Assembly (NCBI RefSeq): GCF_007745175.1
Contig: NZ_CP036271.1
Coordinates: 2,314,154 to 2,378,153, forward strand
Direction: 5' to 3'
DNA from: Caulifigura coniformis
GTDB lineage: Bacteria > Planctomycetota > Planctomycetia > Planctomycetales > Planctomycetaceae
DNA: 64,000 nt
Made by a program: the position numbers and the translations under genes. Positions 7 through 57,039 of the stretch are shown piece by piece. The notes beneath the pieces were generated by a model. The model searched no databases, was not told where the DNA came from, and saw nothing but the letters and a program-made list of their open reading frames with translations. How positions within the stretch are numbered: the stretch's first letter is position 1; each line of letters begins with the position of its first letter.

Positions 7-100
7 ACGCTGGCAACGTTTGCGGCTTCCAAGGAACTCCGTGTGAACATTGGAGAACCAGTGGTTCATCCGACCGGCGGCTAGCGCCTTGCCGCTCACT
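7..100. repeat. Dispersed intergenic repeat, copy 1
   Basis: The core reads CGACCGGCGGCTAGCGCC at 71-88 followed by TTGCCGCTCACT. A second copy, CGACCGGCGGCTAGTGCC plus GACCGCTCACT, lies at 3117-3145. Both are preceded by a GCTGGCARCGTT block (7-20 and 3103-3116), which is separated from the core by about 50 bp here and is adjacent in copy 2. No gene is visible in 1-197. Confidence 0.6.
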
Positions 101-19255: not shown

Positions 19256-19329
<74 letters not shown>

Positions 19330-19380
19330 CTTTACGGGGCAACGACTTACGGAAAGTCGAGCCTTGCAAAACACGCCGCC

Positions 19381-19401
19381 GTCCGAGAAGTTGTCCGAGA
19401 A
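19381..19401 (+). other. Candidate integrase arm-type sites, left end
   Basis: GTCCGAGAA occurs at 19381-19389 and 19393-19401 (12-bp spacing), between the tRNA and the integrase start. The same word recurs only near the other proposed end (52596, 52654; GTCCGAGTT at 52643). Confidence 0.5.
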
Positions 19402-19515
19402 TTCGAGCGGCGTAAGATGAAAACAGCCCCGCCCGGTTGCCGCCGGACGAGGCTGTGAAGCGAGCCTTTCGGTCGCCTCTGGTTAGTCCTTTTGGATTCG
19501 ACTGGAGGGTTCGCT

Positions 19516-20697
19516 GTGCCCCATTTCCCGAAACCGTTCTTTAAGCGCTCGCGCGGTAGCTGGTACGTCGAGATCGACCGCAAGCAGGTCAAGCTCGGCC
19601 CTGATCGCGAAGGAGCGTTCCGCCGCTACCACGAGCTCATGCGGCAGCCGGAAGCCAAGGTTCTCACCTCGGAATCGGTCGTCGCACTGGCCGACCAGTT
19701 CCTGGGCTGGCTCAAGAGCCATCGCTCGCCCGACACGTTTTCTTGGTACCAGTACCGCATCGAGCGTTTCTGCCGGCGTTACCCGGAACTGACGACCGAC
19801 GCCCTGAAGCCATTTCACGTCCAGCAGTGGGTCGACAGCTATCCGAAGCTGAGCCGAACCTCGAAGCGCAATTACGTCCGATCGGTCAAGCGCTGTCTGA
19901 AGTGGGGCGTCCAGCAGGGCTACCTGGCCAGCAGCCCGATCGAGCAGCTGGAAGTTCCCGGCGGCGACCGCAAAGAAACGTTCGTCACGGTCGAGGAGTA
20001 CGAGCGGCTGCTCGCCCATCTTTCTGACCAGGCCTTCCGCGACCTGATCGTCACGACCTGGGAGACAGGTTGCCGGCCCCAGGAGTCGCTTCGCGTTGAA
20101 GCCCGTCACGTCGACCTGAAACATTCGCGATGGGTGTTTCCGAAATCGGAGTCCAAAGGCAAGCGGCAGCCGCGTGTGGTGTATCTCACGCCGGCGGCCC
20201 TGGAGATCACGCAGCGTCGTATGAACGAGTTTCCGACAGGGCCGCTGTTCCGTAACCGGAACGGTAATCCGTGGACGCCGGACTCGGCCAATTGTGCGTT
20301 CGACCGGCTCAGAACCCGGATCTTCCAGCGATCGAATCCGGCGAACGAAGAGCTGGTCGCCGAGGCGGCGACACGTATTCGGTTGATGCTCAGTCCGGAG
20401 CGGATCATCGAAGGCGATGCTGTTCCGAAGTCGCCTCGGCAGCTGCAGGCGGAAGCACGCAGGAAGGCACTGGCCGAACTCGTGAAGAAGCATGTTCCGC
20501 GTTACTCCCTGTATGCCCTCCGGCACTCCTGGGCGACAAATGCGCTGAAGTCAGGCGTCGACCCCCTCACAACTGCGATACTTTTAGGACATTCGGATCC
20601 TTCCACGCTCAGCCGTGTGTACCAGCATCTGGGCCTCAATCCGGCCCACATGCTGGAGCAGGCTCGGCGTGCTTCCGGAGGCGCGGCGGCCTCTTAA
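19516..20697 (+). CDS. int: Tyrosine recombinase (integrase) of the element
   Basis: 393 residues. The GTG at 19516 is preferred because GGAGG lies 7 nt upstream; a TTG at 19492 is the alternative. It has an N-terminal arm/core-binding SAM-like domain (about 60-150) and a C-terminal catalytic domain. The catalytic Arg is in ETGCRPQESLR, box II reads LYALRHSWAT with Tyr in place of the usual first His, then LLGHSD and the nucleophile in SRVYQHL. An insert of about 70 residues precedes box II. Its position next to tRNA-Arg fits a tRNA-targeting integrase. Confidence 0.9.
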   Translation: MPHFPKPFFKRSRGSWYVEIDRKQVKLGPDREGAFRRYHELMRQPEAKVLTSESVVALADQFLGWLKSHRSPDTFSWYQYRIERFCRRYPELTTDALKPFHVQQWVDSYPKLSRTSKRNYVRSVKRCLKWGVQQGYLASSPIEQLEVPGGDRKETFVTVEEYERLLAHLSDQAFRDLIVTTWETGCRPQESLRVEARHVDLKHSRWVFPKSESKGKRQPRVVYLTPAALEITQRRMNEFPTGPLFRNRNGNPWTPDSANCAFDRLRTRIFQRSNPANEELVAEAATRIRLMLSPERIIEGDAVPKSPRQLQAEARRKALAELVKKHVPRYSLYALRHSWATNALKSGVDPLTTAILLGHSDPSTLSRVYQHLGLNPAHMLEQARRASGGAAAS

Positions 20698-29609: not shown

Positions 29610-29959
29610 GCGACACAGTCCGATGCTACACCGAGGTCCCCGGTGCGGAGCTGCTTGGAACCGGCGAGTTCCAGACCAAGGATTTCGGCTGCCGATTCGA
29701 CTATTTCACGATCGATAAGGAGGGCCGGCTGATCCACCACCAGCGGACCTTTGACGCTGAAGGAATGCCGCTTCCCCGAACGCCCGATCGCGACGTGATC
29801 GCACCTATCCACAGGGACGTCAGGCTCTACGGCCGTGATGCCGTGGGAAACCATCGCGACTACTGTGCCAGATTCACCGACGGCAGACCCCAGTGGGTAA
29901 AGCCTTGGGACGAACTGTCCGAGCTGCAACGCGAGTATTCGGTCATTGTCGAATCATGA
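29600..29959 (+). CDS. Hypothetical protein between toxin and recombinase
   Basis: 119 residues from ATG 29600, with GGAGGG 4 nt upstream; ATG 29606 is a close alternative. It overlaps the toxin end by 10 bp and the recombinase start by 4 bp (ATGA), so four genes from 29086 to 30927 form one coupled operon. GCRFDYFTIDKEGRL and RPQWVKPWDELSELQREY suggest a compact beta-rich protein. Similar small proteins follow TA pairs in planctomycetes; function unknown. Confidence 0.6.
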   Translation: MGMSDTVRCYTEVPGAELLGTGEFQTKDFGCRFDYFTIDKEGRLIHHQRTFDAEGMPLPRTPDRDVIAPIHRDVRLYGRDAVGNHRDYCARFTDGRPQWVKPWDELSELQREYSVIVES

Positions 29960-40725: not shown

Positions 40726-41039
40726 CCCGGTTCGTCGAGCTTTCCGAAGAGGAGTTCGAGCGGCAGTTCAGCCTCGTTCCCAATCACCTGAATCCCAATG
40801 CCAGCTGGAGCTTCGACGATGCCCGCGGCTGCCTGTTCGAGACTTTCGGCGACGAGCTGGATTTCATCCGCAGCCAGCCGGCCGAGAATGTCTGGACGCT
40901 GGTCGACGGTGACGATGGCGACCTGTACCTGGTAAGCGGTGTCCACGTCGTGAACCGGATCGGCTACCTCGTGACGACCGAGTCGGTGGCTCTCGACATC
41001 CATGTCGAGGTCCGGTTTTCGATGGAACGCGAGGAGTGA
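40722..41039 (+). CDS. Hypothetical protein
   Basis: 105 residues, coupled to the previous gene by ATGA. An acidic alpha/beta protein (FVELSEEEFERQFSLVPN; VWTLVDGDDGDLYLVSG). Three small genes (39908, 40351, 40722) form an operon divergent from the relaxase, a place where transfer accessory genes often lie. Function unknown. Confidence 0.6.
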   Translation: MTRFVELSEEEFERQFSLVPNHLNPNASWSFDDARGCLFETFGDELDFIRSQPAENVWTLVDGDDGDLYLVSGVHVVNRIGYLVTTESVALDIHVEVRFSMEREE

Positions 41040-41329
41040 CGCCCCGCAACTCCGACCGCGCACAGGCCCGCCCCCTTCCGTCCGATAACGGCGGACGGGT
41101 GCCGGGCAGCGACGGCTCCGCTACGAGCTATTTGGGGCTCTTCGCTCCGCCAGAGGCGTTCCGGCCGACTGCACGGCGTCCTCACGGAGACCTCCTCAGG
41201 TCCCTAAAGGCATGCCCGATTCCGCGTCTGTTGACGAATGGAATAGAGCTTCGTCGCGGCCCTAAAGCCGCTTACTCAGCGAACTGACTGAAAATGAACC
41301 AGCAAAATGACTTTCAAGCAGACGTCTCC

Positions 41330-41345
41330 CCTAAGCGTGCTTAGG
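41330..41345. promoter_or_regulatory. Perfect palindrome just before the 8-bp array
   Basis: CCTAAGC-GT-GCTTAGG, 7-bp arms around GT, 12 bp before the first array unit. A second hairpin, GCGGC-CCTAAA-GCCGC, lies near 41258-41273. No other feature seen in 41040-41329. Confidence 0.45.
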
Positions 41346-41357
41346 ACGCCTTTCACC

Positions 41358-41689
41358 GTGAAAGAAGGAAGGAAAGCCTTCATGAAAGGTGGAAAGACTG
41401 CCGGAAAGAAAGCATGTCAGACTGACAGAAAGAAAGACGGAAAGAACGACAGATTGACGGACGTCTGTCATGACAGATTGCCAGCATGATGGAATGACGG
41501 AAAGCCTGAAAGCTGTCTTGCTTGCCAGCGGTCTTGCTGTCCAGATTGCATGATTTCTTTCACGACATATTGCCACGTTGCCAGCGTGCTGGCTTGCCAG
41601 AACTCTGGCCCTCCGGATTGCCAGACTGATGGCCGTCTGGCTCTCCAGCATGCAGGAAATAATGCTTGCCAGATTGCCAGAACCGCGCT
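41358..41689 (+). repeat. parC: Degenerate 8-bp phased array, candidate partition centromere
   Basis: About 41 contiguous 8-bp units plus one 4-bp half-unit (41518-41521) run up to 11 bp before the parA start. By hand count, position 3 is G in 31/41, position 7 is G in 34/41 and position 8 is A or C in 38/41; consensus N-T-G-M-C-R-G-M. TTGCCAGA-type units dominate the second half (41478-41681) and GGAAAGA/TGACAGA types the first. Short phased repeats before a parA with a small RHH partner are typical of ParG- or omega-type centromeres. Confidence 0.7.
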
Positions 41690-41700
41690 AGGTTCGGCCC

Positions 41701-42372
41701 ATGATTATCGTCGTCGCGAACTCAAAAGGTGGTGTGGGCAAGTCAACGCTGGCTGTCCATCTGGCTGCCTGGCTGCATTCCCAGGGTCACCGTGTAACTC
41801 TCGCGGATTGCGACACACAGCACTCTTCATCTGAATGGATCAAAGAGGCCGCTCCCGAGGTTCAGGTCGTGCGGCTGGATGACGCCAAAGAGATACTCGA
41901 CCAGCTGCCGCTACTCGACCAGGAAACGGACTTCGTCATTGCCGACGGTCCGGGCAGCCAAACGGAGACCAGCCTGGCACTTCTTCTGCGGGCTGAACTG
42001 GCAATCGTGCCGTGCAAAGCCTCCATGCTGGAGGTGAGGGCGCTCGCAAAAGCCACCGACGTTCTTCGTCAGGCCCAGGACATCCGAAAGGGGCTTCCTT
42101 CGGCCGTGATCGTGCTCAGCATGATCGGGAAGAACTACCGCCTCACGCAGGACATGAAGGACGCCGCGGCGGCACTGAAGCTTCCGCTCGCCAAATCCGC
42201 AATGACGCTCCGGCAGATCTACGCCGACGCGCCGGGTCAGGCAAAAGTTGTCTGGCAGATGGGTTCGCGCGCCAAGGAGGCGGCCGACGAGGTGCAGCAG
42301 ATTTTCCATGAGATCCTGCCGAAGGCTGCGATCCGCAAACCGGCGAAAAGGCCGGGGACCAACGCAGCGTAG
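41701..42372 (+). CDS. parA: ParA/ParF-type partition ATPase
   Basis: 223 residues, no N-terminal HTH, so type Ib (ParF-like). The deviant Walker A is NSKGGVGKSTLAVHLA with the signature Lys, LADCDTQHSSS is the A' motif and DFVIADGPGS the Walker B. It forms ATP-driven patterns on the nucleoid and moves plasmid copies through a centromere-bound partner. It is followed after 8 bp by the small gene at 42381, and preceded by the phased array. Confidence 0.93.
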   Translation: MIIVVANSKGGVGKSTLAVHLAAWLHSQGHRVTLADCDTQHSSSEWIKEAAPEVQVVRLDDAKEILDQLPLLDQETDFVIADGPGSQTETSLALLLRAELAIVPCKASMLEVRALAKATDVLRQAQDIRKGLPSAVIVLSMIGKNYRLTQDMKDAAAALKLPLAKSAMTLRQIYADAPGQAKVVWQMGSRAKEAADEVQQIFHEILPKAAIRKPAKRPGTNAA

Positions 42373-42380
42373 GAGGGACC

Positions 42381-42689
42381 ATGGCCGACCGCAGATCACT
42401 CGTTGAGGGACTGAAGCAGACACCGGCAGTCGACCCGGAAATCGAGCGCCAGTTTGTCTTCCGGAACAAGACGCAGAAGCCGGCAGAACCGAAAGAACAA
42501 GCGCCCGCCAAGCCTGCTCGTGCTTTAGCTCGTACGCCGCTCAGTACCAGGATTCGGGCCGATCTGTCAGCAGCGTTGAAACGAGCCTCACTGGAGCGGG
42601 AGCTCAACGGCATTGAGCCTTACTTCATCGGAGACATCCTCGATGAAGTGCTGGAGCCTTGGCTTAGGAACAACGGCTACATCACCTGA
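42381..42689 (+). CDS. Candidate ParG-like RHH partition partner
   Basis: 102 residues with GGAGGG before the ATG. The first 45 residues are charged and Pro/Ala rich (probably flexible, with Arg/Lys that could stimulate the ATPase). The C-terminal part, PLSTRIRADLSAALKRASLE then IGDILDEVLEPWLRNNGYI, has strand-helix-helix layout of RHH proteins. The size, order and position match parG or omega genes. Assignment rests on context and weak fold pattern. Confidence 0.6.
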   Translation: MADRRSLVEGLKQTPAVDPEIERQFVFRNKTQKPAEPKEQAPAKPARALARTPLSTRIRADLSAALKRASLERELNGIEPYFIGDILDEVLEPWLRNNGYIT

Positions 42690-42695
42690 TCACCG

Positions 42696-43739
42696 TTACG
42701 GGTGAGGACTTCGCTCAGCCCGCTTCTTGCAGAATCCAATGAACGCCGCTTCGGGATCCCGCGGCGGTTCCGTGAGCCATTCCCTCCATTCCCGTTCCAG
42801 GAAGTAAACATCCCAGCCAGGGGCGACGCTCCGGGCATGGTTGTAGACCTCCGGATCGAGGCCGCGAAGCGGAATCTGCTCGAATGGCAGCTCGGGCGAG
42901 GGGACGCTGCCGCGGCTCCGGAACGTGACGATGTCGCTGTCGTCGAGCATCACGGAATAGTCAGGCATGTGCCCGAACTTCTGGTCCTCTTCCACGATAT
43001 TTGAGACCAGCCGGCGGAACTCCTTTTCTGTCGAGCAGGAACCGCATTTGTGCTGGAGACGCTGCAGAGAGATCTTCCACTCCTGCTGCTTGCCGCAATG
43101 CTTGCGGGCGAGCTCGTACATGCGGCGTTCCAGCGGCTTCCGCAACCGAAAATAGTCCCGGTGCAGCGTCAGCACCTCCTGGGACTGGATTGCGTTGAAC
43201 ACCCAATCCGAGAGCTTGATCTCGACTTCCTGCATCCGGCCTTCGCGGGTTTCCCGGACGACTTTCGCCCGCTCGATCAGGCCAAACACTTCGAATGTCT
43301 CCGTGCCGCCGGTCACGATGTTCGTGCTGATCTGCGTACCGCGAAGCCGCTCCAGGGCCGCTTTCAGCGCCGTGTAGCCTTCGCCGCTGGTTACGCGATT
43401 TGTCGCGCGCAGGAGATCGTGTGCCTTGAACCGGACGACGGAGGAAAGGGGCTTTCCGTCGTTCAGGGACGCCATGAGCTGTGAAATGCAGTAGATCAGG
43501 ATGTCGCGGTCGTGGACGGTCGCCAGGCCTTGCGCCGAAGGCGCAATCTCGATGAACACCGATCCGTGCTCGTAGCGTCTCGTGCGGTGGTCCGGCTTCG
43601 TCGAAAGTGAGAAGATGGGGTGCTCCATCGACGCCATGTCGCCCTTGGGAGCAGCATCCAGAATGTCGCAGGAGAAGAAGTCCGGCGCCGCACGACGGTC
43701 GGGGAGAAGAGGGGAGCGACTGCGAACTTCCTGGGTCAT
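42696..43739 (-). CDS. repA: Plasmid replication initiator protein (RepA/RPA family)
   Basis: 347 residues from ATG 43739. FFSCDILDAAPKGDMASMEHPIFSLSTKPD-like block (read as FFSCDILDAAPKGD, then ASMEHPIFSLST) is the hallmark of the RepA/RPA initiators of broad-host iteron plasmids. Two winged-helix regions follow (LKAALERLRGTQIST; LSDWVFNAIQSQEVLTLHRDY region). It should bind the nine iterons that begin 10 bp upstream of its start, giving origin melting and autoregulation. Convergent with parA and its partner. Confidence 0.9.
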   Translation of the reverse strand: MTQEVRSRSPLLPDRRAAPDFFSCDILDAAPKGDMASMEHPIFSLSTKPDHRTRRYEHGSVFIEIAPSAQGLATVHDRDILIYCISQLMASLNDGKPLSSVVRFKAHDLLRATNRVTSGEGYTALKAALERLRGTQISTNIVTGGTETFEVFGLIERAKVVRETREGRMQEVEIKLSDWVFNAIQSQEVLTLHRDYFRLRKPLERRMYELARKHCGKQQEWKISLQRLQHKCGSCSTEKEFRRLVSNIVEEDQKFGHMPDYSVMLDDSDIVTFRSRGSVPSPELPFEQIPLRGLDPEVYNHARSVAPGWDVYFLEREWREWLTEPPRDPEAAFIGFCKKRAERSPHP

Positions 43740-43748
43740 GTGACGACA

Positions 43749-43969
43749 TTCGTCATTTCACCCACCAAGTCAAGAAGATTCGTCAGATCACCCACCGGCC
43801 CTCGTCATTTCACCCACCGGTGTGGCGCTTTCGTCAGATCACACACCGTTTCGTCATTTCACCCACTGGAAAGCGCGCTTCGACAGATCACCCACCGCCC
43901 CTGAGCTTCGACAGTTTACACACCGTTTTTCGTCATTTCACCCACCGAGTTTCGACAGTTTACCCACCG
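43749..43969 (+). repeat. Nine 19-bp iterons
   Basis: Units start at 43749, 43779, 43801, 43830, 43850, 43879, 43907, 43929 and 43951. Type form TTCGTCATTTCACCCACCG; variants carry CAGATCACCC or CAGTTTACCC, and GAC for GTC. Start-to-start spacing alternates near 20-22 and 28-30 bp, that is about two or three helical turns. Flanked by repA. Confidence 0.95.
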
Positions 43970-44083: not shown

Positions 44084-44376
44084 CTTCGGGACCGCCGTCG
44101 GGAGGCACGTCTTCCCAAAAAACATCCTCTCCGGAGCGCGGGGAATGTCTGCAGGATGGCATTCAGGGGGAGATCGACGGTCGATCCCGGGCGTAATCGA
44201 ACGGCTTCTCTTGCCGATCGTTCTGGCTTCAAAGCACTTGACCGTAGCCCGTTGATGTGGCTCTCCTGAACCTGAGCAGTAAGCAATCTCGCTTCGCTGT
44301 TTCTCGGTCAATGGGTATCTTTCTTGGACCGAAGAGGGCGAATTCCCGCCACCGAAGGAGTCGAAGGCGACGACAC

Positions 44377-46104
44377 GTGAAAGTCCGGCCATCCGCACAG
44401 CTGCTGATCTTTAGCGGCAACGACGAGGAAGAAGCGAGCCCGCACGCGAAGGCTCTCGGTGCGTACTACACGGACGTCCAAATCGCCGATTTCTTGACCT
44501 GGTGGGCGATACGATCGCCAGAAGATCACGTCATGGACCCGTCATTCGGCGGTGGCGTGTTCTTGCGGGCGGCGTGCCGGCAGATCCGGAAACTCGGGGG
44601 CGAGCCGAAGACCCAAGTTTTTGGCGTGGAGATTGATGAGGAGGTCTTCTACCGCATCAGTGGAAAGCTTGCCGAAGAGTACGGCCTACAACCAACCCAG
44701 CTGCAGAACGAAGATTTCTTCCGGGTCGAGCCTCAATCACCTTGGCGAATGTCGGTGATCATCGGAAACCCGCCGTTCATTCGTTACCAGCGATTCACCG
44801 GACGGAGCAGGGAGCGAGCGTTGGCACGGGCGTTCGCCGAAGGCATCACCCTTCCGAAACTCGCAAGCTCCTGGGCGCCTTTTCTTTTGCATTCGGCAGC
44901 GATGCTCACCGAGGGCGGCCGACTCGCCATGGTGCTACCCGTTGAAATCACCCACGCCAAATACGCGCAGCCGATCCTGCGTCACCTGCAGCGATCGTTT
45001 CGAGCGACGACGTTCATCACCTTCAAATCAAAACTCTTCCCCGACCTCAGCGAAGACACGTTGTTACTTCTCGCTGAAGGAAAGGGGCACGGTCCTGGGG
45101 AGTTCCGTCACCGTGACTTGCAGCACGCTGGAGCCCTCGCCGAGATTGCCAAAGGTCGATCCGCAAAGCAGGTTCAGTCGGAGACGATCAAAGAAGCAGA
45201 CGAGATCGTTGCCGGCCGTCAGCGATTGATTGAGCAGCTGCTACCCAGCGACATGCGGCGGCTTTACCGACAGCTAGCCGCTGGAAACGACAGCAGTCGA
45301 TTAGGCGAGATCGCGAATGTTGGCATTGGTTACGTGACCGGAGCTAATGATTTCTTCCACCTAAGTCCAGACGAAGCAAAACGTTTGGGGATTCCTGCAC
45401 GCTTCCTGAAGCGCGTTGTGCGTCGTGGTAGGTCGATTTCCGGCCTCAAATTCACCGAGCAAGACTGGAAAACCGCGTCCGCCAACGGAGAAGCCGCGTA
45501 CTTGCTCTACCTGCGGCAAGGTGACCCACTTCCCGACAACGTCCAGAAATATCTGGAAGCAGGGAAGCGGGCAGGCGTCGCCGAAGCGTACAAGTGTCGG
45601 TCACGTTCGCCATGGTACGCCGTCCCGCACGTCCACCGTCCCGACGGATTCCTGAGTTACATGAGCGGTGAGACGCCGCACCTCGTTTCCAACGAGGCGA
45701 AGGCGTTCGCGCCGAACAGCTTGCACATCGTGCGGATGCGAAGCGGACAACCACATTCCGCAGCAGGGCTCGCGGCGCTTTGGCAGACCTCGATGACGCG
45801 ACTCAGCGTCGAAATCGAAGGACATGCGCTTGGCGGCGGAATGCTGAAACTTGAACCCGGTGAAGCGGCGAAGGTCCTACTGGCGAAGCCGGAAACGGCC
45901 GCCGATGAACTCGAAGAACTCGCCGCGGAACTGGATCTGGTGAGTCGGAAGTCGGGTACAGATGCGGCCAGGAAGAGGGCGGACGAGCTGATACTCTGCC
46001 GGTCTCTTGGGCTCAGCCGATCGGATTGTCGGTTGTTGAATTCGGCCGCTGAACTGTTGCGCGATCGCAGGATGCGTCGGAGCAAAAGTCATGAGCTTGC
46101 TTGA
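44377..46104 (+). CDS. N6-adenine DNA methyltransferase of a restriction system
   Basis: 575 residues if started at GTG 44377; ATG 44311 or 44257 would add an Arg-rich leader. SAM-binding motif I is HVMDPSFGGGVFLRAA and the catalytic motif IV is IIGNPPFIRYQRF (NPPF, so N6-adenine). The C-terminal half should be the target-recognition part. It resembles stand-alone type II (Eco57I/TaqI-like) methyltransferases. The stop overlaps the next gene by 14 bp, pairing it with a candidate endonuclease. Confidence 0.8.
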   Translation: MKVRPSAQLLIFSGNDEEEASPHAKALGAYYTDVQIADFLTWWAIRSPEDHVMDPSFGGGVFLRAACRQIRKLGGEPKTQVFGVEIDEEVFYRISGKLAEEYGLQPTQLQNEDFFRVEPQSPWRMSVIIGNPPFIRYQRFTGRSRERALARAFAEGITLPKLASSWAPFLLHSAAMLTEGGRLAMVLPVEITHAKYAQPILRHLQRSFRATTFITFKSKLFPDLSEDTLLLLAEGKGHGPGEFRHRDLQHAGALAEIAKGRSAKQVQSETIKEADEIVAGRQRLIEQLLPSDMRRLYRQLAAGNDSSRLGEIANVGIGYVTGANDFFHLSPDEAKRLGIPARFLKRVVRRGRSISGLKFTEQDWKTASANGEAAYLLYLRQGDPLPDNVQKYLEAGKRAGVAEAYKCRSRSPWYAVPHVHRPDGFLSYMSGETPHLVSNEAKAFAPNSLHIVRMRSGQPHSAAGLAALWQTSMTRLSVEIEGHALGGGMLKLEPGEAAKVLLAKPETAADELEELAAELDLVSRKSGTDAARKRADELILCRSLGLSRSDCRLLNSAAELLRDRRMRRSKSHELA

Positions 46105-46901: not shown

Positions 46902-48143
46902 ATGGCGCAGCCGTCTATCCTTCCTCTCGGTGACGAATCGCAAACCATCGTCGCTGCAACGGCTGGTCAGCCTGAATGTATTCAGTCAGAACTCTCTCTG
47001 ATCCCGCCAGACATGTCGGCGTTTCGAGAGCCGGCCATTGGCATCTACCTTCAGGAACTCGAAGGACTGTTGACCCAATGTCGAGTTGCTCTGTTGATGG
47101 GCGCTGGCTGCAGCAAGTGCGCGGGCGTGCCATTGATGGACGAGTTGACATCGATCGTGAGCCGACGTCTAAACGGCACTTCACTGGAAGTTCTCACTGG
47201 TGTCCTCGAAGGCTTCGAAGGAGCTCCTCGTTGCACAATCGAGGACGTCATGAGCGAGATTGTGGACTTAGTAGCGATCGCAGAGAGGCGCGCCCTTCGC
47301 GGGGCAGCAGCCCCGACTGTATCAGTCAACGGGACGTCGTTCTCAAGCGATTTGCTTGGCACTGCACTGGACGACGTGAAGCGGGAAATCGCGAAGGCCA
47401 TCATCGATCCCTCGAAAAACAAGCACATTGAGACACACCGGGCACTTATTCGGACAATACACGGCACACTCCGGGCCGGGCGAGCTTCGACATTTCCACA
47501 CGCAGTAGACTATTTCACACTCAACTATGACACGCTGATCGAAGATGCGCTGTCCCTCGAGCGAATCACCACCGTAGACGGGTTTCAAGGCGGCGCAACC
47601 GGGTGGTGGGACGTCAGTCTTTACCAGCAGCAAGTTGCGTCGGCCCGCGTTTACAAACTGCATGGATCAATCGATTGGTGCCTCTGCGATGACGACATTC
47701 TTCCGCGTCGCATTCGAGACGGAGTGGCAGTCGCGTCACGCAAAGACCACTTAATGATCTGGCCGGCCGCGACTAAGTATAGGGAGACGCAGCGAGACCC
47801 CTACGCTCAGCTGGTATCGCTCATGCGACGGAGCCTTCGTCCTGATGCCAGCGAAATCGTGTTGTGCATTTGTGGTTACGCCTTCGCTGACGAGCACATC
47901 AATTTTGAATTGGATCGAGCTCTCCGCGAGTCTAACGGCAGGCTGACATTCGTCGTATTCACTAGCGACGACGCTCCTGCCGGACAGTTGAAGCTCTGGA
48001 ATGACGACCCACTTCTCAGTGAACGAGTCCGTATTCACGCAAATCGTGGCTTCTTTCATGCAAGCACTGCCTACAGCACCGAACACGATCTTCCGTGGTG
48101 GAGATTCGAAGTGCTAACACATTTGTTATCGGGCCATCGATGA
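46902..48143 (+). CDS. SIR2-domain effector of a SIR2-HerA defence system
   Basis: 413 residues; ATG 46902 lacks a clear ribosome-binding site, and ATG 47013 is possible. SIR2-type Rossmann motifs: ALLMGAGCSKCAGVP (64-77), FTLNYDTLIEDAL with N208 and D210, and YKLHGSIDW with candidate catalytic H254. Known SIR2-HerA pairs form complexes in which SIR2 degrades NAD or acts on DNA during phage infection. It overlaps the herA-like gene by 4 bases (ATGA). Confidence 0.88.
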   Translation: MAQPSILPLGDESQTIVAATAGQPECIQSELSLIPPDMSAFREPAIGIYLQELEGLLTQCRVALLMGAGCSKCAGVPLMDELTSIVSRRLNGTSLEVLTGVLEGFEGAPRCTIEDVMSEIVDLVAIAERRALRGAAAPTVSVNGTSFSSDLLGTALDDVKREIAKAIIDPSKNKHIETHRALIRTIHGTLRAGRASTFPHAVDYFTLNYDTLIEDALSLERITTVDGFQGGATGWWDVSLYQQQVASARVYKLHGSIDWCLCDDDILPRRIRDGVAVASRKDHLMIWPAATKYRETQRDPYAQLVSLMRRSLRPDASEIVLCICGYAFADEHINFELDRALRESNGRLTFVVFTSDDAPAGQLKLWNDDPLLSERVRIHANRGFFHASTAYSTEHDLPWWRFEVLTHLLSGHR

Positions 48144-49960
48144 CTGCAACCCCGCGTACGCCGAGCGACCCCATCGAGAATCTAGCGATTGGCAGGATCA
48201 TCGAGGTTGATGGTCCGCACGTTGTTGCGGAGCTCGATGCTAAAATCTCGGAGCTCACTCGCGTCTTTAATGGAGTGCTGTATCCCATCGGTCAATTTGG
48301 ATCGATTGTGAAGATTCATTTCGGGCGACGAATGATCTACGGATATGTTTCACGACTGCGCATGAAGGCCGACTTCAATCGAGAAAGAGGCATCGCTGCT
48401 GACGGAACTTCTTCTGCACGAATCATAGAGGCCGATCTCTTTGGCGAGGGTGAGTGGACAAACAATGGGGGGGGCTGGAAACTCGAATTCGAGCGAGGAG
48501 TTTCGACATTCCCATTGCCGCAGCAGGGAATGTACCTGACCCCGCGTAATGAGCTGGCAGACGTGTTTGGCCGGGGCAGCGAGCAGAGCTTTGAGATTGG
48601 CGAGCACGTGGGAAGTGGCGGAACACCGTGCTTTCTTGACTTGGACGAACTGCTAGGCAAACACACGACTGTCTTAGGCTCCACCGGCTCAGGCAAATCA
48701 AGCGCGGTCGCCGGGATTGTTCATTCGATTCTTCGACATGGACAAGCGTTGACCTTTCCGGTTTGGATGCCGAGGATAATCATCCTCGACCCGCACAACG
48801 AATACGGCGGCGCGTTCCACGGGCACACTCGGCTGTCGACTGACGAGGGAAGTCTGTCACTGCCGTATTGGATGCTCGACCTAGAAGAGACAATCGCTCT
48901 GTACGTCGGGAAAACAGAGTTCGCTGCGACATCCCAAACAAACATCGTCAAAAATGCGTTGCTGTCGGCGCGGCGGGCCGGTGCCGCGATTGTCGGTGTC
49001 AACCCCGATGACATTACTGTCGATTCTCCGATTCCCTATGTGTTGGGTAACCCTGTCGGATTAGACAATTTTGGATCACGGAATGGTGCGTTGGACAAAG
49101 TCGGATTCGTTGGGCAAATAAACGAGCAGCGGCCAAAGGACAGTAAGGACAAATCGAAGCACGACGATTTTAACAAGGTGGTCCGCAAGCTAGAGAGCTT
49201 ATTACGCGACTCTCGTCTCAAGTTTATGATGCGGCCGTGGAACGGGGAGAAGTCAACCGGCGATCTATCGAATGTGCTGCAGCAGTTTCTCGGCAAAGGT
49301 CACCCGGTGTGTGTATTTGACCTATCGGGCGTTCCTAACGAAGTAGCGGGCGCGGCAAGTTCGGCAGTTGCGCGAACATTGTTTGCGGCAAAGCTGTGGC
49401 AGACTGTGGAAGAAAGAGCGCGAAACCCAGTCCTACTCATCTGCGAGGAGGCTCACAGGTACGTTCCAGACAAAGGGGACGCGCAATACGCCGCTGCACG
49501 GCACGCCATCCAGCGGCTCGCAAAAGAAGGTCGAAAGTATGGAATCGCTTTGATGCTGGTGTCTCAGCGACCCAGTGAAGTCGATGCAACAGTCCTATCG
49601 CAGTGCAATTCATGGATTGTTTTGCGGATTACCAACGATTCCGATCGCGAGCACGTGAGGGCGATTTTGCCTGATTCACTCGTGGGGCTTACAAAAGTGC
49701 TATCAGGTCTCAGGCAACGGGAAGCAGTAGTTGTTGGTCAGGCAACAGCTCTGCCCTCGCGAATCCTCATCCGAAAGCTAGAGGAACATCAGTTGCCGCG
49801 TTCCAACGACATTAGCTTCTCGACCGGGTGGCAGTCGCCTCATCTGGACTCGGCGTCTCTCTCGATCGTGGCTCGACGTTGGCAAACTCAGGAACGGCTG
49901 GCCGCTGAGTTGTCATCAATGGCTGATGGCCCACCATCAGAGGATGCACCGCCGTTCTAA
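48140..49960 (+). CDS. HerA-type hexameric ATPase/translocase of SIR2-HerA
   Basis: 606 residues from ATG 48140. An N-terminal HAS-barrel-like domain (about 10-75: IGRIIEVDGPHVVAEL) is followed by the ATPase: Walker A LGSTGSGKSSAVAGIV (179-194), LDPHNEYGGAF, Walker B VLLICEEAHRYVPD and LMLVSQRPSEVD as sensor/arginine region. HerA-like DUF87 proteins assemble as hexamers that regulate the SIR2 subunits. Translation is coupled to the SIR2 gene. Confidence 0.9.
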   Translation: MTATPRTPSDPIENLAIGRIIEVDGPHVVAELDAKISELTRVFNGVLYPIGQFGSIVKIHFGRRMIYGYVSRLRMKADFNRERGIAADGTSSARIIEADLFGEGEWTNNGGGWKLEFERGVSTFPLPQQGMYLTPRNELADVFGRGSEQSFEIGEHVGSGGTPCFLDLDELLGKHTTVLGSTGSGKSSAVAGIVHSILRHGQALTFPVWMPRIIILDPHNEYGGAFHGHTRLSTDEGSLSLPYWMLDLEETIALYVGKTEFAATSQTNIVKNALLSARRAGAAIVGVNPDDITVDSPIPYVLGNPVGLDNFGSRNGALDKVGFVGQINEQRPKDSKDKSKHDDFNKVVRKLESLLRDSRLKFMMRPWNGEKSTGDLSNVLQQFLGKGHPVCVFDLSGVPNEVAGAASSAVARTLFAAKLWQTVEERARNPVLLICEEAHRYVPDKGDAQYAAARHAIQRLAKEGRKYGIALMLVSQRPSEVDATVLSQCNSWIVLRITNDSDREHVRAILPDSLVGLTKVLSGLRQREAVVVGQATALPSRILIRKLEEHQLPRSNDISFSTGWQSPHLDSASLSIVARRWQTQERLAAELSSMADGPPSEDAPPF

Positions 49961-52702: not shown

Positions 52703-53998
52703 GTGAGGCGGCTGAAGGCTCGCCCACACACTCTTCGCAACTTCAATTCAGAAGGCGACTTCAGAGGACAACGGTCACGAAGCGGTCGAAAAACTCGTTC
52801 GGCCTACGGAACCGAAGGCCGCGATGTGCTGGGAATCGTCGCGGATGTCCGACTCGTGCGGGAAGACGCCCAAGACCTGGTGGAAATCCGCGTCGAACCC
52901 TACCCGAACCCGATTAGCTACAAAGGCGAGTATCACGTCCGCAGCGGCAGCACGAAGCAGGAACTCAAAGGGGCCGCTCTCGACCGCTTCCTGATGCGGA
53001 GATACGGCCGGACCTGGGACAGCGTCCCGGCGCCGGGCGTCACGATCCGGCAACTTTCGGCGACGGCGTTTGGCACGTTCCGCAAACTGGCCAAGCAGAG
53101 CGGGCGGATGACGGCGGCGGACCTCAAGGGCTCACGCGAGAGTCTGCTGGAGAAACTGCGGCTCGTGGAAGGGAAGTATCTCACTCATGCCGCCGTGCTG
53201 TTGTTTCATCCTGAGCCACAACGCATTTTTACCGGGGCGTATGTGAAGATCGGTTTCTTCCGCAACGGGAGCGACGTCGTCTATCACGATCTGATCGAAG
53301 GCGATCTCTTCAGCCAAGCCGCGAAGACGGTGGAGTTGATCCGCGCCAAGTACATGAAGGCGGCCATCACCTATGAGGGCATTCACCGGATCGAGACGTA
53401 TCCCGTTCCCTATGAGGCGCTCCGCGAGGCCGTGTTGAACGCCATCATCCACAAGGATTACGCCGCACACGCTCCGATCCAGATCAAGGTGTACGAAGAC
53501 AGGATGTCGATCTGGAATCCCGGCCATCTTCCCGAGAACTGGACGCCGGAAAAGGTGATGCAACAGCATTCCTCCAAGCCGTTCAATCCCGAAATCGCCA
53601 ACACGTTTTTTCGCTCTGGCGAGATTGAGATGTGGGGGCGTGGAATCGAGCGGATGATCGAGGAGTGCCGCGCCGCAGGTTTTCCTGCTCCCGTCATCAA
53701 ATACGACGCAGGCGATTGGCGGACGGAGTTTTCGTACCCGAAATCGGTTCTGGAGCGGCTGGACGGGGACCGGGCAGGAAGCGGAGAGCAAAAAACGCGG
53801 GTGGAAACGCCGGGGAAAACGCCGGTCAAAATTCTCGCAGTTTTGAAGGACCACCCCGAGTACAGCCTGGCGGAGGTTGCCGCCGCGATTGGGAAATCAC
53901 TCAGTGCGGTCGAGCGGGCGGCGGCCAAGCTCGTGAAATCGGGCAAGCTGCGCCGCGTCGGCCCCGCCAAAGGCGGTCACTGGGAGATTCTTGAGTGA
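52703..53998 (+). pseudogene. 5'-truncated Schlafen/AlbA-type regulator
   Basis: The reading frame opens at GTG 52703, but family-like sequence starts only at residue 40 (RDVLGIVADVRL, base 52820). The first half of the AlbA_2 domain is missing; residues 1-39 are junction sequence that includes the tRNA-Arg-like repeat. The rest is intact: end of AlbA_2 with GEYHVRSGSTKQELKG, an HATPase_c_4-like domain (LREAVLNAIIHKDYA; EMWGRGIERMIEEC), and a C-terminal wHTH (YSLAEVAAAIGKSLSAVERA). In intact operons this gene sits between mod and res. Confidence 0.75.
52799..52818 (+). repeat. Near-copy of tRNA-Arg anticodon arm (candidate attR core)
   Basis: TCGGCCTACGGAACCGAAGG differs from 19283-19302 in the tRNA (TCGGTCTACGGAACCGAAGG) at one base. 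It ends 1 bp before Schlafen-homologous sequence begins. Similarity stops at both sides. Confidence 0.6.
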
Positions 53999-56900
53999 GC
54001 ATCATGAAGCTGCAATTCAAAAAACAGGGCTACCAGACGGCCGCCGTCGAGTCGGTGGCTGATTGCTTTGCCGGGCAACCGAAGTCGGCCGGGATCAAAT
54101 ACCGCATCGATCCGGGCCGAACGAAGGATGCTCGGCAGATCACGATGAAAGAGGTCGACGAAATTGAGGGGTTCAAAAACTCCGATCTCGCGATTCCACC
54201 GCAGCAGGTGTTGCAGAACATTCAGGCGGTGCAGCGGCGACAGAACCTCCCCGAGTCATCTGCACTCGCCCGGACCAATGTCAGCCCGATCAATCTCGAC
54301 GTCGAGATGGAAACCGGCACCGGCAAGACGTACTGCTACATCAAGACGATGTTCGAGCTGCACGAGCGGTTCGGATGGGGCAAGTTCATCGTCGTCGTTC
54401 CCAGCATCGCGATCCGCGAAGGGGTGAAGAAGTCGTTCGAGATCACGGCCGAGCACTTTCTGGAGACCTACGGCAAGCGGGCGCGGGTGTTCATCTACAA
54501 CTCGAAGAGTCTGCATGAGATCGAGAGCTTCTCGTCCGACGCCGGGATCAACGTGATGATCATCAACGTCCAGGCGTTCAACGCGACCGGGAAAGACAAC
54601 CGCCGCATTTACGAAGAACTCGACGACTTTCAGTCGCGGAAGCCGATTGACGTGATTCAGGCCAATCGGCCGATCCTGATTCTGGATGAGCCACAGAAGA
54701 TGGAAGGGAAGAAGACGGTCGATTCGCTGGCGAAGTTCAATCCGTTGATGATTCTCCGCTACTCCGCCACGCACAAAACGGAACACAACAAGATCCACCG
54801 GCTGGATGCCCTGGACGCCTACAACCAGAAGCTGGTCAAGAAGATTGCCGTTCGCGGCATCTCCGTGAAGGGGCTGAGGGGCACGAATGCCTACCTCTAC
54901 CTGGAATCGATCCAGATCTCGACGAACAAGCCGCCCGAGGCCCGCCTGGAACTGGAGACCAAGCAGGCGGGCGGCATCAAACGGGTCGTCCGAAAGATTG
55001 GCCGCAACGACAACCTGTTCGACCTGTCGGGCGGTCTCGATCAGTACAAGGGCTTCGTCGTCGCCGACATCGATGCCCTGAAGGATACCTTGAGTTTCAC
55101 CAACGGCGAGGAGCTTCAGGCCGGAGACGCGACCGGCGATGTGAACGAGGCCGCGTTGCGGCGCATTCAGGTCCGCGAAGCGATCCGGGCGCATTTCGAG
55201 AAGGAACAGGTGCTGTTCCACCAAGGCATCAAAGTGCTGACGCTGTTCTTCATCGACGAGGTGGCGAAGTACCGGCAGTACGACGACAACGGCGAGCAGC
55301 CCGGCGAGTACGCGAAAATCTTCGAGGAGGAGTACGAAGCCCAATTGCAGGAAACTCTGACGCTCTTCGGCGACGAGTACGACAGATACCTGAAGGGGAT
55401 TCCGACGGCGAAGACGCACAACGGCTACTTCTCGATCGACAAGAAAACCAGCCGCCTCGTCGATCCCGCCACGAAGAAAACGGGCGAACTGAAAGGAGAA
55501 ACGGAGGACGTCGACGCCTACGACCTGATCCTCAAGGACAAGGAGCGGCTACTGTCGTTCGAGGAGCCGGTGCGGTTCATCTTTTCGCACTCGGCCCTGC
55601 GGGAGGGGTGGGACAACCCCAACGTGTTCGTGATCTGTGCCCTGAAGCACAGCGACAACACGATCTCCCGCAGGCAGGAAGTCGGTCGCGGAATGCGACT
55701 GTCGGTCAACCAGCGGGGAGACCGCATGGACGACCTGGCCACCGTTCACCAGATCAACGTCCTGACGGTGGTCGCCAGTGAGAGCTACAAGGAGTTCGTC
55801 GGAGCGCTCCAGAAGGACATCAGCGAATCGCTGTCGGCCCGGCCAAGAAAGGCAGACGAAGAGTTTTTCACCGGCAAGGTGCTGAAGACGCCGACTGGCG
55901 ACGTCGCCGTCACTCCCCAGATGGCCAAGCAGCTCTACAAGTATCTGCTCAAGAACGACTACACGGACGATGGGGACCGGATCACGCAGCTCTATCACGA
56001 CGCCAAGAAGAACGAAGAGCTGGCGCCATTGCCGCCGGACCTGGCCCCGCACGCGGCGCAGGTCTTCTCGCTAATTGACAGCGTCTTCAGTGAAGCCCAG
56101 TTGCCGGAAATCGGCGATGACCGGAAAGACAAGCCGAATCCGCTCAGCTCCAATTTCCACAAGAAAGAGTTTCAGGAACTGTGGAGCCGCATCAATCGCA
56201 AGGCGGCGTACACGGTGCATTTCGAGACGCCGGAACTCATTCGGAAGTGTGTTGTCACGCTCGACAAGGAACTGAACGTCGCTCCGCTTCAGTACACCAT
56301 CCAAAGAGGGGAGCAGGCGGATGAGACGACCTTTGAATCATTGCAGGAAGGGGAGGCGTTCGAGCTGAAGGAGACAGCCAGCGGCTCGCTCAAAGCCTCG
56401 GTTCACTCTGCCGTGAAGTACGACCTCATCGGCAAGCTGGCCGAGGAGACGAAGCTGACCCGGCGGACGATCGCCGAAATCCTCCAGGGCGTCACCAAAG
56501 CGACGTTCGGCCAGTACCGAATCAATCCCGAGGATTTTCTGCAGAAGGCCGCCCGGTTGATCAACGAGCAGAAGGCAACAGTCATCGTCGAACATTTGAC
56601 CTACGACATGATCGACGAACGGCACGACAGCGACATTTTCACCCGCGAGAAGCTCAAGGAAGATTTCAGCAAAGCGATCAAGGCGGACCGCCACATCTAT
56701 GACTACGTCTTCACCGATTCCAAGAACGAGCGGGAGTTTGTTCGGGAACTCGACACGAGCGTGGAGGTCGTCGTCTACGCCAAGTTGCCGAAGAGCTTCA
56801 CGATCCCGACGCCGGTGGGCCACTACAACCCGGACTGGGCCATCGCTTTTCAGGAAGGAGTGGTGAAGCACGTCTATTTCATCGCCGAGACGAAGGGCTC

Positions 56901-57039
56901 GATGTCGTCGATGGAGTTGCGGAAGATCGAGGAATGCAAGATCGACTGCGCCCGCAAGTTCTTCCGCAAGATCACGTCGGACCAGGTGAAGTACGACGTG
57001 GTCAACAGCTACGGGAAGCTGATGGAACTGGTGAAGTAG
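53995..57039 (+). CDS. Type III restriction enzyme Res subunit (orphan)
   Basis: 1,014 residues, GTG start overlapping the upstream stop (GTGA); ATG 54004 is close. SF2 helicase: Walker [12 protein letters not shown] (105-115), [12 protein letters not shown] as the DEAD-box variant, [11 protein letters not shown] and [13 protein letters not shown] (motif VI). The C-terminal endonuclease is PD-(D/E)xK: D947 in NPDWAIAF, E965 and K967 in IAETKG. Type III enzymes need Mod for target recognition; no mod gene is found upstream, where the element junction lies. Confidence 0.9.

Follow-up and report, generated by a model that had tools for sequence, protein, structure and literature searches.

Upstream of a parA gene in the window (the whole 64-kb stretch of DNA analysed here) lies an array of about 80 tetramers, at 41359..41682, that obey one degenerate rule, (HDKM)n, in an uninterrupted 4-bp register. 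We put at roughly 0.78 the probability that this array is a centromere (parS/parC-like), with an operator at its right end, of a type Ib partition module on an integrated plasmid-like element; our confidence in the molecular detail of the mechanism set out below is lower than our confidence in this function. The array was delimited by autocorrelation, an HMM and a tetramer count, and is given no strand because the HDKM code is strand-symmetric.

A 4-bp register upstream of parA

The initial annotation had described the array as 41 degenerate copies of one 8-mer. Its position counts were reproduced exactly when the sequence was cut every 8 bases from 41358 and the half-unit at 41518-41521 was skipped (G at position 3 in 31 of the 41 units, G at position 7 in 34/41, A or C at position 8 in 38/41), and the lag-8 excess over shuffled sequence, set beforehand as a test, was present: for 41358-41689 the lag-8 autocorrelation was 0.472 versus 0.253 in 2000 dinucleotide shuffles, none of which reached it (z 8.9, 0/2000). 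The unit is not 8 bp long, however. Over the same interval all multiples of 4 from lag 4 to lag 40 exceeded the shuffles, that is, lag 4 (0.418, z 6.7), lags 12, 20, 28 and 36 (z 7.4, 6.3, 4.9 and 7.6) and lag 16 (z 7.9) as well as lag 8, the strongest being lag 24 (0.552, z 11.7) and the lowest lag 28, and lags 6, 10, 14 and 18 were depleted. The basic period is 4 bp, and 8-bp and 24-bp order is weaker. Since the basic period is 4 and not 8, the half-unit 41518-41521, taken earlier for a break of phase, is in phase. Likewise, the TTGCCA sites had been said to lie all at multiples of 8 from one another. Two sites, 41478 and 41522, were missing from that list, and the first of them lies 92 bp before 41570, a distance divisible by 4 and not by 8. 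The array is thus better described as a rule, (HDKM)n, with a weak 8-bp modulation than as copies of one 8-mer. A coding origin was ruled out at lag 3 (z -1.0).

Within the 64-kb window the array is the top place for lags 4, 8, 12, 16 and 24. Its 4n-lag statistic is 0.299, compared with a mean of 0.002 (sd 0.016, maximum 0.074) in 1264 overlapping 200-bp windows taken at a step of 50 from the remainder of the 64 kb. A four-state HMM, in which slips are penalised and which is always trained without the scored locus, placed the array of the window locus at -342 to -19 relative to parA (~41359-41682), with 80 tetramers and 0 slips.

Read in fours over 41358-41685, 70 of the 82 tetramers fit H-D-K-M, i.e. 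not G, not C, G/T, A/C, a pattern identical to its reverse complement. The same rule fits 1898 of 2432 tetramers over 34 non-redundant arrays, a count that leaves out the divergent or GC-rich L017, L018, L029, L048 and L049. In these 34 arrays the third-fourth step is GC 1091 times, TC 454, GA 451, GT 136, AC 116 and TA 49; GA and TC are about equally frequent, as GT and AC nearly are, and the two strands therefore read much alike. TA is rarer than expected at the K-M step (49 versus 115) and is avoided at the first-second (H-D) step (36 versus 228 expected). The fit is tightest in arrays such as L016 (57/62) and L047 (47/51) and looser in L017 (32/68), L029 (25/51) and L044 (57/110). A separate CCGG code for L048 and L049, matched by an altered beta-strand in the partner protein, was considered and dropped: it was an artefact of frame rotation, the CGGC units fitting HDKM, and for this reason no protein-DNA covariation is claimed.

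Conservation of the array in homologous loci

Homologs of parA were found in 16 of 170 genomes of the GTDB family (E<=1e-40) and in 5 of 392 genomes of the phylum (E<=1e-60), and a scan of genome contigs gave 34 loci; no relative was found in viral contigs. The distribution is sporadic, as for a mobile element. Where titled, the loci are planctomycete except L036 ('bacterium') and L038 (a 'Bacteroidales' MAG). The parA start was placed by script in 43 loci, of which L015, with 31 bp of upstream sequence, was left unscored; the 42 scored loci comprise 37 distinct ones, five being duplicates across collections. The expectation that related parA genes would be preceded by similar arrays was borne out, in that the best lag was a multiple of 4 in 42/42 scored homologs (37 distinct).

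The HMM detected an array in 37/37 loci, as a single segment without slip in 30/37; L048 is counted among these 30 unbroken arrays, though its array was found over 69 bp only. L048 aside, the unbroken arrays are 178-444 bp long. Arrays in blocks were found in L018, L032, L033, L037, L045 and L049, and slips in L029 (one), L032 (four) and L037 (one). In L032, L033, L037 and L045 there are 533-573 bp of array in four or five blocks, not in one run; L033 belongs to the Isosphaeraceae by its title, and L032 is a Tautonia, of the same family. Averaged over 36 loci, the autocorrelation stays at 0.37-0.43 for every multiple of 4 as far as lag 100 and fades only slightly, from 0.38-0.43 up to lag 24 to 0.37-0.40 near lag 100, with multiples of 8 slightly above the other multiples of 4; the means are 0.24 at odd lags and 0.16 at lags of 4n+2.

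Eleven loci lie beyond the script set, and L070 and L071 were added later. The 4n statistic peaked at the parA start or immediately before it in L052 (0.259), L054 (0.209) and L055 (0.147). Loci with distant ParAs (38-44% identity) also peaked at or just upstream of parA: L020 (0.234), L022 (0.101), L021 (0.094) and L003 (0.092) exceeded the control maximum of 0.074, and L019 (0.074) equalled it. In L070 and L071 tetramers were recognised by eye, and runs of 8 are present. By the 4n statistic the array is absent at L004 (33% ParA) and at the truncated copies L023 and L053, and a cursory look at L005-L007 (weak ParA matches) found no 4-bp signal. L055 is degenerate, its ParA match covering residues 103-209 only and its partner the N-terminal tail only, yet a 4-bp array lies upstream.

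The genome that holds the window has at least two clear modules, that of the window and L002, besides a weaker third, L003. Their coexistence poses the question of how incompatibility between them is prevented. The ParAs of the window and L002 are 75% identical; the alignment of the two loci, with 84 gap columns in 644 and an overall identity of 64%, is good at the array ends and the promoter region and poor in the interiors. The code holds in both.

Insertions, deletions and the register

Among close relatives, all 12 in-array indels are multiples of 4 (12, 20, 4, 4, 4, 36, 8, 16, 8, 16, 8 and 8 bp), compared with none of the 23 gaps outside the arrays or at their left edge, which measure 1, 2, 5, 9 or 11 bp and include 1-bp gaps at the left edge in L016/L028 and L024/L026. 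The sample consists of 13 close-relative pairs, four of which compare the same two sequences and five of which are gapless, and the 12 in-array gaps probably represent eight or nine events. Periodic DNA biases alignments towards whole-period gaps, so this evidence is partly circular and serves as support, not as proof; that phase fades so little over the 36 loci is independent of alignment. Taken as support, these patterns are consistent with selection on the register.

Indels in multiples of 4 would also be produced by slippage, and the array could in principle be a degenerate, functionless tetranucleotide microsatellite; parts of it do resemble (GAAA)n, and its length varies among loci. We nevertheless hold this origin to be very unlikely. 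One code recurs across loci with poorly alignable interiors, the window locus and L002 among them, two positions of the unit allow almost any base, essentially one being excluded at each, coherence barely fades with distance up to lag 100, and the place beside parA is constant.

The ParA and its small partner

The parA gene (41701..42372, + strand) encodes a protein of 223 aa with a Walker motif, KGGVGKST, from residue 9 and a Pfam ParA-type domain from residue 2-3. Its closest solved chain is TP228 ParF (4dzz, E 4.7e-13), and it matches NF041546 with 152 bits, below the cut-off of 180. Partition of type II (ParM) or type III (TubZ) was ruled out, the motor being a Walker ParA and not actin- or tubulin-like. 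According to the accessible part of PMC3235114, ParAs of type Ib measure 192-308 aa and lack an N-terminal DNA-binding domain, and their small partners measure 46-131 aa. The window ParA agrees with type Ib in both of the former respects. Its partner, a protein of 102 aa whose gene (42381..42689, + strand) starts 8 bp after parA, agrees with type Ib in size and in its position just downstream, as do most of its homologs in size, those of L003, L018, L020, L021 and L022 being larger (143-152 aa).

This partner, the proposed array-binding protein, has a basic N-terminal tail (MADRRSLVEGL...FVF) and an RHH-like C-terminus (PLSTRIRADL...). The initial annotation had placed a small RHH-like gene right after parA. 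As to gene order this is well supported, since the gene just after parA was a small one, coding for a basic tail and a C-terminus of RHH-like type, in 53 of the 54 loci read, duplicates included, the exception being L055, where the tail alone was found. In these partners the tail mostly reads (A/E)RRxL...F(V/I), and the C-terminus either P-(I/L)-(S/T)-T-R-(I/L)-R...ALKRASLERQL...ILEEA.EPWL or a divergent form; R57 is invariant in alignment A1 (36 sequences) and conserved at >=90% in the wider set A4 (30 sequences). The RHH fold itself is backed weakly by Pfam and not by PDB sequence or fold searches. The Pfam family 56B_RHH was weakly matched by 14 of the 36 A1 members (best E 0.0089) and by 10 of the 30 in A4; no Pfam family was found for the window partner at E<=1, and the nine families that the 36 members matched between them did not include ParG (PF09274). 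A PDB profile search with A1 gave no match at E<=10, and that with A4 gave six, at E 0.18 or worse, one of them RHH-type (a CopG/Arc/MetJ chimera, E 0.7); single-sequence PDB searches matched no RHH protein. AF2 models (pLDDT 85.9 for the domain) have two helices and no strand, and Foldseek returned no match at E<=0.001. Searched against the plasmid collection, the protein encoded at 42381 was unmatched at E<=1. The layout of the partner fits an RHH protein, for which the evidence of these searches is weak.

A putative promoter and the boundaries of the array

At its right end the array runs into a sequence that may be the parA promoter (41666..41694, + strand), proposed from motif counts in the 37 loci: TTGCCA as -35 (41666-41671), a 17-bp spacer and a weak -10, TAGGTT (41689-41694). 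The -35-like sequence is itself built of array tetramers. CTTGCCA occurs within 75 bp of parA in 32/37 loci and CTTG in 37/37; the pair TTGCCA-15..19-T(A/G)nnnT is present in 20/37 only, the -10 being poorly conserved, and a consensus promoter scanner reported none at its threshold. A sigma-70-like promoter is plausible here, and since its -10 would end 6 nt before the ATG, the parA mRNA may be leaderless.

This arrangement bears on the idea that the array works as RNA, either as a structured leader or as an antisense RNA controlling parA. The + strand does fold better than its dinucleotide shuffles (z -3.5), but the excess is lost when the tetramers are permuted (z -0.36 in the window, -1.9 to +1.6 in nine other arrays) and is therefore a by-product of the self-complementary code. 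Moreover, 40900-41800 gave no Rfam match at E<=0.1, and with the proposed promoter only ~6 nt would be left for a leader. We regard an RNA element as highly improbable.

The left end of the array is bordered in many loci by an element with two inverted repeats. In the window (41319..41364, + strand) it consists of CAGACGTCT, the inverted repeat CCTAAGC-GT-GCTTAGG (41330-41345) and the palindrome CTTTCACCGTGAAAG (41350-41364); the arms of the second repeat are TTTCAC/GTGAAA. By a strict pattern the boundary motif, CAGACGTCTYCCC or similar, was found in 24/43 loci. Paired changes keep both inverted repeats in 13 hand-picked loci, as judged by eye in an alignment that left out duplicates, close relatives, the truncated L029, and L010 and L048, in which the second palindrome is absent. 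The element is possibly a site of recognition, transfer or recombination.

Such an element could also be the true centromere, in which case the array would be only an unusually long operator for parA and its partner, as the -35-like sequence in its right end might suggest. However, with some 300 bp ahead of the promoter the array would far exceed what an operator should need, and in the type Ib modules described in the available portions of PMC5016525 and PMC7308502 one protein binds both centromere and operator. We therefore consider an operator with a centromere elsewhere to be unlikely, and prefer to read the array as both.

Genomic context of the module

The par module lies within a single 6.76-Mb contig, near genes for a MobF relaxase, tyrosine integrases and ArdC-type proteins, and is probably carried by an integrated plasmid-like element; partition would matter when this element is excised or free. 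A replication initiator gene of the RPA (RepA) family (42696..43739, - strand; PF10134, E 3.3e-88) adjoins the module, and beside it tandem repeats of ~22 and 49 bp with CACCCACC-like blocks (43779-43969) are probably the iterons of an origin. With a relaxase and an initiator as neighbours, the array might conceivably act with some other protein in a different task of the element, for instance as an accessory binding site at oriT or in replication control. We give this very little credence, because the initiator gene has different repeats of its own beside it, the position next to parA is constant and, in cyanobacteria, 4-bp order goes with an RHH partner of ParA (see below).

A candidate boundary of the element is formed by a tRNA-Arg gene and the tyrosine integrase gene that comes after it (19256-20697), and further integrases are located at 29893 and 57076. 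At 46902-49960 a gene for a SIR2-domain protein is followed by one for a HerA-type ATPase, a pair that resembles the SIR2-HerA anti-phage pair; it lies near M.Eco57I-like (44257-46104) and type III restriction-like (53995-57039) genes.

Partition modules from other sources

The register was compared with that of other parA loci over 170 bp upstream of parA, using 200 shuffles and the mean z at lags 4, 12, 20 and 28 (4odd) and at lags 8, 16, 24 and 32 (8n). The 19 comparators were hand-chosen among 60 matches listed, of at least 5000 matching records. Homologs of the window locus gave mean z values of 7.2 / 8.3 (4odd / 8n; n=37, 35 above 3 in each), cyanobacterial plasmids with an RHH-type partner 3.0 / 2.8 (n=8, including the negatives L058 and L068; three and four above 3), cyanobacterial plasmids with a Spo0J-type ParB -0.2 / -0.4 (n=5, none above 3) and other plasmid modules 0.3 / 3.0 (n=6; 0 above 3 at 4odd and 3 at 8n). 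For the last group, five partners were scanned and matched ParG or other RHH families below cut-off only. Thus, among the comparators tested, 8-bp order is common to some other small-partner systems and 4-bp order is not.

The prototype of the parA modules found on RPA replicons of proteobacterial plasmids is pTAR. Those of Methylobacterium pMRAD05 and Gluconobacter pSJF2-d resemble the window module in having a ParA, a small partner and an adjacent RPA-type initiator, but differ from it upstream of parA: pMRAD05 has 8-bp order (8n z 5.3) and no 4-bp order (4odd z -0.2), and pSJF2-d likewise has no 4-bp order (4odd z 0.0; 8n z 2.3).

Closer to the window array are the ParA + CopG/RHH modules of cyanobacterial plasmids (Scytonema, Nostoc, Planktothrix, Tolypothrix), with 4-bp order upstream of parA in 6/8. 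In these six the 4n statistic was reached by at most 5 of 300 shuffles (L061, L072, L074 and L076, 0; L077, 1; L075, 5); clear 4-bp order was missing in L058 (267/300) and L068 (22/300), and in all five Spo0J-type ParB loci, where 24-260 of 300 shuffles reached the statistic. Among the cyanobacterial loci tested, then, 4-bp order accompanies an RHH partner of ParA. Units such as ATGC-AGTA fit HDKM in some of these modules, and the code trained on planctomycetes fits 4/8 of the RHH loci (L061 0, L072 1, L076 1 and L075 5 of 300 shuffles, L061 and L072 being near-duplicates), the other four giving 36, 70, 79 and 294 of 300; among non-RHH or other loci the lowest value was 13 of 300, for L067. 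The cyanobacterial arrays are shorter than that of the window, and the ParAs are ~35-42% identical. The partner tail (KRKPL...EFVYG) resembles that of the window on inspection and in a weak profile match, but the RHH part could not be aligned confidently, the profile comparison aligning the N-terminal tail alone in A1 and nothing useful in A4.

A model for the function of the array

Since the array and the small RHH-like gene are both conserved, and a promoter-like -35 lies in the right end of the array, the best reading remains that proposed initially, i.e. that the array may be a parC bound by the 42381 product and probably involved in autoregulation of parA. From these sequence features we would picture dimers of the 42381 product, RHH-like and comparable to ParG or omega, coating the array cooperatively, most likely one per 8 bp, with the nearly invariant arginine (R57) of a putative beta-strand recognising the G's in the GC-like step of each tetramer. 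A code with a 4-bp repeat that reads alike on both strands should let the dimers land in either of two 8-bp registers and in either orientation. The result would be an unbroken filament of ~40 dimers, which would present basic N-terminal tails to ParA and stimulate its ATPase, so that the element is moved, and which would cover the -35 of the parA promoter, so that transcription is repressed.

More tentatively, and with somewhat more doubt than belief, such arrays may form a distinct class of bacterial centromere, spanning Planctomycetota and cyanobacterial plasmids, in which the DNA is a continuous strand-symmetric 4-bp lattice instead of a set of discrete sites and the partner recognises one GC-like step per tetramer. 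The 4-bp step would then equal half the footprint of one dimer, so that a filament could start in either register or orientation and slide or interleave, and the avoidance of GC out of register would keep the lattice unambiguous. A half-dimer register that persists across a phylum although its letters are replaced would make the rule legible from sequence alone. The array offers a direct way of testing how register is set by centromere proteins that form filaments, and why it may outweigh sequence. As a signature that is simple to compute, it also allows partition sites to be sought in little-studied phyla, both on plasmids and in integrated elements.

Relation to known partition systems

The parH site is ~100 bp long and has an 8-bp repeat with the box ACTC. 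The module to which it belongs, TP228 parFGH, resembles the window module in operon order, in ParF being the nearest solved relative of the ParA, and in its small two-part partner, as well as in having degenerate short boxes arrayed upstream of the ATPase gene with operator function (PMC7308502 and PMC5016525, in the parts accessible). In parH, as far as the available text of PMC7308502 describes it, tetramer boxes with AT-rich spacers are coated by ParG dimers. The window array, in contrast, carries its code in every tetramer, is strand-symmetric, belongs to a set whose unbroken members are longer (178-444 bp, as above), and has no spacers, as lags 4, 12 and 20 are nearly as strong as 8 and 16. 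Its partner also differs from that of TP228 in matching no ParG family in Pfam.

With the delta/omega/parS system of pSM19035 the window module shares contiguous, spacer-free repeats that overlap promoters, in the window a putative one, and that, in pSM19035, are bound by a small RHH protein. There, according to the accessible sections of PMC9499535, the repeats are 7-bp non-palindromic WATCACW units, 7-10 per site, and the protein binds them as a left-handed spiral. A 7-bp repeat of this type was not detected in the window (lag 7 z -0.5) or in any of the 37 loci (7n z>3 in 0/37).

In the available part of PMC5016525, centromeres of type Ib are located in front of the operon, and repression is a second role of the small RHH proteins; the window locus likewise has a repeat array, putatively its centromere, upstream of the operon. 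Neither a partition array in a 4-bp register nor a like planctomycete centromere is described in the accessible portions of the open-licence literature searched (including PMC7308502, PMC9499535, PMC3235114, PMC5389482, PMC9178275 and PMC5016525), where the arrays given for small RHH partition proteins are discrete boxes, either 7-bp repeats or tetramers with spacers. The description of the array as a new type of centromere thus holds for its layout, spacer-free and strand-symmetric at 4 bp, but not for the module as a whole, which is of a known kind, with a type Ib ParA, a small RHH-type protein and an upstream repeat array.
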